Source: Halorubrum sp. CBA1229 (GTDB lineage Archaea; Halobacteriota; Halobacteria; Halobacteriales; Haloferacaceae). From it: a DNA stretch of 64,000 nucleotides. How positions within the stretch are numbered: position 1 is the first letter of the stretch; each line of letters begins with the position of its first letter. The notes under the pieces were generated by a model. It ran no database searches. It saw only the letters and a program-made list of their open reading frames with translations, and was not told the DNA's origin. This document shows, in pieces, positions 4,282 through 31,050 of the stretch. The stretch covers positions 2,232,001-2,296,000 of the forward strand of contig NZ_CP054585.1 of NCBI RefSeq assembly GCF_003721435.2, in the 5' to 3' direction. The position numbers and the translations under genes are program-made.

Positions 4282-4335
4282 ACGCGGGACCGCTCTGTTT
4301 CCTTCCGGGGCCGTCGGCGCGTTTCGACGGCAGAC

Positions 4336-4342
4336 GTATTTA
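4336..4342 (+). promoter_or_regulatory. TATA-like box of deoC
   Basis: GTATTTA centred 28 nt before the deoC ATG, the normal spacing for a leaderless haloarchaeal transcript. Inferred from position and composition only. Confidence 0.5.
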
Positions 4343-4366
4343 CCGCTCCGGGTTGTAGAACAAGAC

Positions 4367-5038
4367 ATGTCATTAGAGAGTACTATCCGAGACGATCCGG
4401 AGCGGATCGCGTCGGTCATCGATCACACCAACGTCGACCCGACCGCGAGCGAAGAAGCGATACGGTCCCTCTGTACCGAGGTCCTCGAATACGGGTTCCG
4501 GTCGGCCGTCGTCGTTCCGTACCACGCCGAGCTCGCGAGCGAACTGCTCGCCGGCGAGGCGAACGTCGTCGCGGTGATCGGGTTCCCGTACGGGATACAG
4601 AACTCGGCGGCCAAGCGGAGCGAGGTCGAAGCGCTCCACGAGCACGTCGACGAGTTCGACATGGTCATGAACAGGACCGCGTTCGCGAACGGCGACCACG
4701 ACGCCGTCGTCGACGACGTCGAAGCGGTGAAAGACGCGGTCGGCGAGAAGACGCTGAAGTGTATCATCGAATCGCCCGCCCTGACGCCGTCGGAGATACG
4801 GCGGGCCGCCGGACTCGTCGAGGAGGGCGGCGCCGACTTCGTCAAGACGGCCGTCGGGTACGACGGGCCGACGGCCACCGAGGAGATAACGGCGATCCGC
4901 GAGGCGGTCGGTTCGGACACCGAAATCAAGGCGTCGGGTGGGATCGCCTCCTTCGAGGAGGCGCTCGAGATGGTGGCCGCGGGGGCGACCCGGATCGGCG
5001 CCTCCTCGGGGGTCGAGATATACGAGAGCGCGCGGTAG
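4367..5038 (+). CDS. deoC: Deoxyribose-phosphate aldolase
   Basis: 223 aa, the standard length for a class I DeoC. It cleaves 2-deoxyribose-5-phosphate to glyceraldehyde-3-phosphate and acetaldehyde in deoxynucleoside catabolism. The Schiff-base lysine is Lys160 in FVKTAVGY, and the partner lysine is Lys188 in EIKASGGI. IDHTNVDPTAS at the N terminus and VIGFPYG near residue 70 are also family landmarks. It is monocistronic by spacing; no nucleoside phosphorylase or phosphopentomutase lies beside it. The start is supported by the TATA-like box at -28. Confidence 0.96.
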   Translation: MSLESTIRDDPERIASVIDHTNVDPTASEEAIRSLCTEVLEYGFRSAVVVPYHAELASELLAGEANVVAVIGFPYGIQNSAAKRSEVEALHEHVDEFDMVMNRTAFANGDHDAVVDDVEAVKDAVGEKTLKCIIESPALTPSEIRRAAGLVEEGGADFVKTAVGYDGPTATEEITAIREAVGSDTEIKASGGIASFEEALEMVAAGATRIGASSGVEIYESAR

Positions 5039-12765: not shown

Positions 12766-13270
12766 GGGCGTTGTTTATAAGTAAACGAGAGGTGTTGCAA
12801 TCGGCTGTTTATAAACAACGACGACGCTGCGGTGAACACCGCCAAAGCTCCAGCCGCTCGTTGATACGTCGTTGCTGACGAGACGACGGTGAAGCCCTCC
12901 AAAGCCCCAGCCGCGAGGACGGCGCACGCTCGCTGCGCTCCTCAGTCGCTCGTTTCACTCGCTCCCTGCGGTGCTTACCTCGCCTGCGCCGTCCTCGCGG
13001 CTGCCCCTTTGAGTCCCACCCGACCATCGGAAGACGGTCCTGCTCGCTCACTGCGTTCGCTGCGCGGACTGCGACTTCCGTGCTCCCGCTCGTTCCACTC
13101 GCGGGACCGCAACCGCATCGCACCTCACGCCTCCCCAGCCTCGTCGCTCGCTCGGGGCTCCCTTCGGTCGCCCACTACGCTCGCGACTCCCTCGCGCGTG
13201 CACCTCGCGCCCGCCGAGGGCGGACGCTCGGAGGCACGCGCCACCGCAGAGCCGTTTATAAGCAATTAGC
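12766..13270 (+). repeat. Hairpin-rich dispersed repeat element, copy A
   Basis: This fills most of the gene-free stretch 12630-13437. It starts with TTTATAA motifs and 57-bp phased units (CAGCCG at 12851 and 12908), then a structured core. Arm CAGCCGCGAGGACGGCGCA at 12908-12926 is perfectly complementary to 12985-13003. A third hairpin lies at 13207-13227 (9-bp stem with one mismatch, loop GAG). It ends with another TTTATAA at 13253. Long open frames across it arise from the biased GC composition and are not believed to be genes. The remaining 13271-13437 shows only an AT-richer leader. Related copies are at 18.9 kb (inverted) and 30.9 kb. Confidence 0.85.
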
Positions 13271-18700: not shown

Positions 18701-19305
18701 AATATTTTATAAACGACTGAGCCGGTGCGGCGGCGCGCGCCTCCGAGCGGTCGCCCTCGGCGACCGCGAGGAGCACGTGCGAGGGAGTCAGTCGTCCGGA
18801 GCGAAGCGGAGGACGACTGACGAGGCTGGGGAGGTGTGAGGTGCGGTTGCGGTCCCGCGAGTGGAACGAGCGGGAGCACGGAAGTCGCAGCCCGCGCAGC
18901 GAACGCAGTGAGCGAGCAGGACCGTCTTCCAGCGGTGCTGCGCGGGGCGGGGCTCAAAGGGGCAGCCGGGAGGCGGGCGCAGGCGATGTAAGCACCGCAA
19001 CGAGGGAGCGAACGTAGTGAGCGACCGAGTGAGGAGCGCAGCGAGCGTGCGCCCGCCTCCCGGCTGGGGCTTTGGAGGTGTTCACCGTCGATCCGTCAGC
19101 AACGATTTATAATCGAGCGACCGGAGCTTTGGGGGTGTCCACCGTCGCTCCGCTGGCAACGATTTATAAATAAACGACGGGGACGTCGGAGACATTCGTT
19201 CCGTCTTCAGGAGTCATTTATAAGTAATCAAACGGCGATCGGCCGATCGACAGCAACGAATAATAACCGATCTCCACTTGAGCGATCACTTATAAATCGC
19301 GATCC
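18701..19305 (-). repeat. Hairpin-rich dispersed repeat element, copy B (inverted)
   Basis: This fills the gene-free stretch 18617-19319. Main arm CAGCCGGGAGGCGGGCGCA at 18963-18981 is perfectly complementary to 19048-19066. A second hairpin at 18787-18821 has an 11-bp perfect stem (GTCAGTCGTCC/GGACGACTGAC) around a 13-nt loop. A third at 18747-18767 has a 9-bp perfect stem (GCGGTCGCC/GGCGACCGC) with a 3-nt loop. Two 57-bp units (from 19070 and 19127), each with an ACGATTTATAA box, follow; further TTTATAA motifs lie near 18706, 19217 and 19290. No gene is supported here. Confidence 0.85.
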
Positions 19306-30659: not shown

Positions 30660-30689
30660 CTCGGAGTGGGGTGTTGCTGTCGGGTGTTT

Positions 30690-31050
30690 ATAATTGAGTG
30701 ACGGCTCGGCGGTGACGGCTTTCGGATTCCCAGCCGCCCGCTTATAAATCGTTGATCGTGGCTTGACGGTGAAAACCTCCAAAGCCCCAGCCGTGAGGCG
30801 GGCGCACGTTCGCTGCGCTCCTCGTCACTCGCTTCGCTCATTCCTGCGGTGCTTACGTCACCTGCGCCCGCCTCACGGCTGCCCCTTTGAGTCCCACCCC
30901 GACCGCGCCCCGACCGCACAGCCTCACGCCTCCCCAGCCTCGTCGGCCGGCCTCCGCTTCGCTCCGGCCGGCCGACTCCCTCGCACCGGCGGCTCGCGGC
31001 CTCCGGCCGCTCGCCGGGGCGCGCCACCGCGTCGGTTGCTTATAAATCGC
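30690..31050 (+). repeat. Hairpin-rich dispersed repeat element, copy C
   Basis: This fills the gene-free stretch 30660-31181. 57-bp phased units (CAGCCG at 30731 and 30788) carry a CTTATAAATCG box. Main arm CAGCCGTGAGGCGGGCGCA at 30788-30806 is perfectly complementary to 30863-30881. Second hairpin: 30942-30952 pairs with 30966-30976 (GTCGGCCGGCC/GGCCGGCCGAC) around the 13-nt loop TCCGCTTCGCTCC. Third hairpin: 30996-31010 (GCGGCC/GGCCGC, loop TCC). It ends at CTTATAAATCGC near 31038. Same orientation as copy A. The rest up to 31181 is the thyA leader. Confidence 0.85.

Follow-up and report, generated by a model that had tools for sequence, protein, structure and literature searches.

ERIC, REP and Correia sequences are intergenic, palindromic, dispersed and non-coding, as is the longer repeat family of Halorubrum sp. 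CBA1229 described here; none of them is known to combine a tandem array with more than one hairpin. ERIC and Correia are mentioned in the same source as the BOX elements of Streptococcus pneumoniae, which, in the sections drawn on here, have the arrangement boxA-(boxB)n-boxC and for which terminal inverted repeats resembling an insertion sequence have been proposed (PMC3049150). By analogy, BOX elements are rated as the closest known kind, and the CBA1229 family may be regarded as archaeal modular small interspersed repeats. As far as the same sections go, both are modular, occur in many dispersed copies, contain a tandem module of variable number and have stem-loop potential, and the source and the Halorubrum data also agree in slow insertion turnover, nested repeats and the lack, for one family, of an easily comparable empty site (PMC3049150). 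Unlike BOX, the Halorubrum family is archaeal, GC-rich and longer and has several separate hairpins, and a sequence relation is not expected. In the BOX arrangement as quoted the tandem module is internal, whereas in Halorubrum it forms the left end, together with a TATA-like box. Further differences are that Halorubrum copies are kept at ortholog sites between species, with modules that are uncorrelated across copies, and that an outer inverted repeat pair, a possible counterpart of the ends proposed in the BOX source, occurs in 1 of 101 copies.

For the tandem module itself, the nearest parallel comes from halovirus HF2, which infects Halorubrum and whose class I intergenic repeats of 56-58 bp are proven promoters with a TATA box at -26 (PMC8707807). 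In the portion of this source used here, they are like the 57-bp unit of CBA1229 in their near-equal length, internal AT box and Halorubrum context, but they are viral and single and carry the motif TCTTTAAGTC, whereas the 57-bp units are tandem; the HF2 motifs as quoted there are absent, by eye, from the consensus of the unit (PMC8707807). In a keyword search of open-access papers on haloarchaeal repeats, the family was not found described.

Three copies within the window

The window, meaning the whole 64-kb stretch of DNA analysed, contains three copies, A, B and C. Copy A, on the forward strand, begins with an outermost unit-like 57 bp (12784..12840) with TTTATAA at 12808-12814 and a further box at 12774-12780, followed by a 57-bp unit GCCAAAGCTCCAGCCGCTCGTTGATACGTCG... 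without TATA box (12841..12897). Hairpin I (12900..13011), with the arm CAAAG-CCC-CAGCCG and the opposite arm CGGCTG-CCC-CTTTG, leads to the optional hairpin II (13029..13110, GGAAGACGG...GCGGGACCGC), the conserved linker CCTCACGCCTCCCCAGCCTCG (13123..13143), a long-loop variant of hairpin III (13144..13186), hairpin IV (13192..13247), which ends in CCACCGC, and a right-end TTTATAA (13255..13261). Open reading frames were called over copy A between 12399 and 13269, for example one of 126 aa at 12889-13269 (forward strand); ORFs called within the elements are probably spurious.

Copy B lies on the reverse strand and has two units with TTATAA, an outer one at 19134..19190, beyond which further boxes are found at 19217-19223 and 19289-19295, and an inner one at 19077..19133. 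They are followed by hairpin I (18955..19074), hairpin II (18849..18930), the conserved linker (18821..18841), hairpin III (18787..18820), hairpin IV (18727..18781, ends approximate) and the right-end TTTATAA (18706..18712). Copy C, on the forward strand, is composed of one 57-bp unit (30721..30777) with CTTATAA at 30741-30747 and an outer TTTATAA at 30687-30693, hairpin I (30780..30889), the conserved linker (30922..30942), hairpin III (30943..30975), hairpin IV (30982..31030, ends approximate) and a right-end CTTATAA (31039..31045).

The 57-bp spacing reported in the first-pass annotation was recovered in all three copies, with CAGCCG at 12851 and 12908 in A and at 30731 and 30788 in C, and CTTTGG at 19070 and 19127 in B. 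The TTTATAA box assigned to the unit at 12851-12907 is not there: this unit reads CTCGTTGATACGTCG, and the boxes of copy A lie one unit leftward (12774 and 12808). The junction CCAAAGCYCCAGCCG, at up to 2 mismatches, is found five times in the window, always inside one of the three copies, whereas shuffles give 0.20; for TTATAA the count is 17 and the expectation 0.16, and by coordinates 11 of the 17 fall inside these copies.

A repeat family of the Halorubrum lineage

Instead of the three elements first counted, the chromosome carries about 104 copies. In CBA1229, the best conserved stretch of 21 bp was matched 41 times in forward and 63 times in reverse orientation, against 0 and 1 for a backwards-pattern control, and among the 100 of these 104 matches that were listed none lies on the second replicon. 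BLAST with copy A returned 92 matching pieces on the chromosome. A fuzzy scan gave 105 hits, from which 5 with three errors, attributable to chance, were removed and to which one known copy was added; the resulting parsed set of 101 misses some real copies, for example near 2840174.

By BLAST, 40 of 59 genomes were positive. The 21-bp pattern (at most 2 mismatches) was present in all 34 congeners, with 16-183 matches each, and in 4 of 24 genomes of other families in the order (31, 1, 1 and 3 matches), while its controls totalled 4 matches over all 58 genomes. Among the matches listed in a scan of named genomes, almost all were from Halorubrum, accompanied by Haloparvum (at least three loci), Halobellus and Halorussus (at least one each) and a few MAGs. 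Queried with the core, phage records gave no match and 4 plasmid records gave partial ones; the linker matched viral contigs once, in surroundings unlike the element. Rfam reported only one tRNA in the window at the gathering cut-off and no family for copy A at E<=1.

The 57-bp unit and its TATA-like boxes

In the 101 parsed copies, a variable number of 57-bp units is followed by hairpin I, an optional hairpin II, the 21-bp linker and hairpins III and IV, and usually by TTTATAA, over a length of about 350-500 bp. The units are the repeatable left-end module of a long, hairpin-rich, non-coding intergenic repeat family. Their consensus is TCCAAAGCCCCAGCCGCTCG-nTTATAAATnGTTG...CGGATCGACGGTGAACACC; hairpin I starts with CAAAGCCCCAGCCG, which is common to the units, and ends with CGGCTGCCCCTTTG. 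Of 84 pairs of adjacent junctions in the parsed copies, 67 are separated by exactly 57 bp, 13 by 54 bp and 4 by 51, 58 or 59 bp. The number of further units varies (0, 1, 2, 3 and 4 in 38, 33, 19, 3 and 1 of 94 copies), and arrays of identical tandem units, such as four at 2616175, point to local duplication.

The association of the motif with the elements was borne out by its density, TTATAA being found at 3.83/kb inside them (184 in 48.1 kb) and at 0.14/kb outside (48 in 336 kb). Its placement is less regular than had been proposed. TATA-like boxes stand ahead of 38 of the 84 inner junctions and 55 of the 94 outermost ones, which is about half and not most of the units, and junctions without a box are mostly, by eye, of an alternative RTACGTCG type (RTACGTCGTTG). 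Nor does each element end in the motif: a TATA-like string was present on the right in 78, on the left in 89 and on both sides in 71 of the 101 copies, and the right-end TTTATAA lies, by eye and among the copies listed, about 5-16 bp past hairpin IV.

It is conceivable that the family consists of promoter-driven structured RNAs, the TATA box of a unit starting transcription about 10 nt before TCCAAAG, each copy yielding a hairpin RNA and extra units serving as extra promoters. The distance from TATAA to the junction is indeed rigid (exactly 35 nt in 74 of 87 cases, parsed genome-wide), CGGTGAACACC directly ahead of the junction is among the best conserved parts of the unit, and 58-bp AT-containing repeats count among the proven promoters in the pertinent part of the HF2 source (PMC8707807). 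Promoter function of the units is possible. It is harder to reconcile with the half of the junctions that lack a box, with a purine-rich BRE not being seen upstream and with the related core of other named genera, around which the TATA boxes are absent at all 5 loci inspected by eye.

Paired arms of the hairpins

With no pairing filter applied, Watson-Crick pairs fill 92% of the cells in the 12 outer pairs of hairpin I (220 copies), or 91% when 190 distinct arm pairs are used. When the arms were re-dealt between copies, the value was 77% (200 shuffles, maximum 78%), and when they were slid it was at most 44%. Most columns contain more than one Watson-Crick pair type. Among the conserved stem-loops, arm pairing was found in hairpins I and III; in one hairpin I count, 4 of 87 copies were set aside because they paired poorly. 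An origin of the pattern in chance or in the low complexity of GC-rich intergenic DNA, for which nothing but the GC-rich composition was found to speak, is ruled out for practical purposes by the pattern controls, the window counts and the slid and re-dealt arms.

The paired arms vary widely from copy to copy, as would suit a family of structured RNAs transcribed from the units, and this paired diversity could result from selection on the structure of RNA or of single-stranded DNA. The mismatches run counter to an RNA made from the top strand. In distinct arms of hairpin I (at least 8 of 12 paired), A.C mismatches number 43 and G.T 13, two columns giving 26 of the 43, and in distinct arms of hairpin III, for which 136 of 289 copies were used and those with another layout or in which fewer than 7 of the 10 pairs formed were excluded, the numbers are 16 and 6. 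This wobble asymmetry is not in favour of selection on top-strand RNA and leans toward the other strand. Strand choice by RNA folding energy was tried and rejected: the opposite strand was lower in 92 of 92 copies, yet the difference of 25.5 compares with 23.4 after dinucleotide shuffling (24 of 65 eligible copies), and the argument was dropped because the shuffles retain nearly the whole difference, which is almost all composition. Taken with the irregular boxes, these data leave the promoter-driven RNA family a doubtful explanation.

Small double-hairpin inserts (e.g. TCATCAGAACGC..GCGTTCTGATTGGCTCACGAGAGC..GCTCTCGTGAACG) were observed at the same points within hairpin I in some of the copies listed (CBA1229 2635165, 2695865 and 2779883; L188, L189, L191, L208 and L214 of the sister genome G004), and at several sites they are missing from the sister copy of the same site. 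In Halobellus captivus (L268, near 4300-4500), a similar double-hairpin stretch, TCAGAAATCGAAGATTTCTGATGGGCTGCACGAGAGC..., is found immediately beyond the related core. A search pattern for the insert as a separate family proved too weak (16 matches, control 24).

Genomic context

The copies are intergenic. With a crude gene caller that left 9 of 101 copies without a class, 92 could be placed between called genes, 52 in tandem, 27 in convergent and 13 in divergent pairs, against 68, 14 and 25 in 107 element-free gaps (p = 0.011). The commoner convergent pairs (27/92 vs 14/107) would fit host sites for chromosome organisation or protein binding (REP/BIME-like), with the 57-bp array as a putative binding array, as would the long-term retention of sites and the confinement of some 100 copies to the chromosome, no match on the second replicon being among the 100 listed. 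Against such host sites stand the order of orientations along the chromosome, which is not significant (99 of 500 permutations as strong), the spacings of 57 and 54 bp, which are not whole helical turns, and the range of 16-183 copies between congeners, with copies freely lost; they are judged highly improbable. A link to Orc1/Cdc6 positions led to nothing.

Gain, loss and mobility

The three sites of the window were compared across 14 congeners. At site A, a full copy is present in G014 and G021 and a shortened one in G005, G011 and G029, and the other 9, including the sister G004, have none. Site B is occupied in 8 of the 14 (G005, G011, G014, G015, G021, G026, G027 and G028). At site C, the copy of G004 is shortened and rearranged, and in the other congeners the two flanking genes are apart. 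Elsewhere, G004 lacks the CBA1229 copy at 350669, and CBA1229 has other DNA in place of two copies of G004. The presence/absence variation of a dispersed repeat, anticipated for strains, is supported between species, in both directions.

The first-pass annotation had also offered the units as end sequences of a mobile repeat, of which the end position stands, in that the units are the left-end module, and the mobility gains nothing from the sites: no target duplication or clean empty junction was seen at the filled and unfilled sites examined, which differ by more than the element itself. Copy A is flanked by a short inverted repeat, GATAGCGGGAGT... and ACTCCCGCTATC, at about 12735 and 13321. 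As a candidate end of the family this repeat was set aside, the pair occurring in 1 of 101 copies (A) and a one-sided match in 5 others.

A currently active miniature transposon of the MITE or single-strand hairpin type, with the TTTATAA boxes as its ends, would account for dispersed, intergenic, hairpin-rich copies that come and go between species in both directions, and for the inverted repeat outside copy A. It would also be expected to leave target duplications and empty sites, and it accords poorly with boxes at both ends in no more than 71 of 101 copies, with the second replicon being empty among the matches listed, with the absence of near-identical full-length pairs within the genome and with a site and orientation common to the sister genomes at most sampled sites. 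An active transposon is accordingly given very little credence.

Conserved sites and the sequences they carry

Among the first 30 of the 75 G004 copies, both flanks match the flanks of a CBA1229 copy in 19, one flank in 5 and none in 6. Orientation is the same at 23 of the 24 sites treated as shared, the exception, L213, being mis-paired and not an ortholog site, and the median identity of 43 flanks is 91%. At only 3 of the 24 sites does the resident copy rank first among the CBA1229 copies, its median rank being 17 of 101; without L213 it comes first at 3 of 23 and the median rank is still 17.

Modules are likewise uncoupled within CBA1229. In the 58 of 101 copies used, the similarities of hairpins I and III across copies are uncorrelated (r = 0.013; 120 of 300 permutations as high), weak links join the unit to hairpin IV (0.16) and hairpin III to IV (0.10), and a within-unit control reached only 0.26, while the halves of hairpin I give r = 0.86, as expected given pairing. 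Because the modules are uncorrelated and the resident copy is seldom the closest, modules appear to be exchanged between dispersed copies. Site and sequence could likewise become decoupled if copies were repeatedly lost and re-inserted at hot spots, but this should not preserve orientation. Over more than 250 aligned bases, the best matches of 86 copies within the genome peak at 92% identity, with a median of 85%, which argues against a recent burst; no near-identical recent copies were found in this set.

Proposed explanation and meaning

Copy number, layout, unit geometry, arm pairing, conservation of site and orientation in the sister, loss and gain in both directions and the lack of correlation between modules are shown by the data above and are brought here under one explanation, to which we assign a probability of about 60%: the units are part of a modular dispersed repeat of the Halorubrum lineage that is non-coding and non-autonomous and is rewritten in place by recombination. 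The family would be old and nowadays rarely moving. Its resident copies would be rewritten through homologous recombination (gene conversion) with other copies, as the similarity statistics of 58 of the 101 copies suggest, and the conversion would swap whole hairpins, so that both arms stay paired. Unequal exchange at the TCCAAAGCCCCAGCCG junction homology would let the number of 57-bp units grow or shrink, and the TATA boxes of the units may let transcription run incidentally into the hairpins. The data can be explained without a selected host function.

A bolder version, considered unlikely, is that about 100 fixed hairpin stations swap cassettes via a shared pool, their sequence being continually replaced while place and orientation stay the same, that the 57-bp TATA arrays express the hairpins and that the whole has a host role, for example in steering recombination or chromosome pairing in polyploid archaea. 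If this were true, the stations would together make up a recombining multigene family, dispersed and non-coding, that serves the host and is not a dormant parasite.

A well-studied archaeal genus is seen to carry a major repeat family that is undescribed as far as the literature was searched and that no Rfam family matched. Gene calls inside such elements deserve a warning, since they are probably spurious. The elements would provide about 100 natural reporters per genome of non-allelic gene conversion in polyploid archaea.
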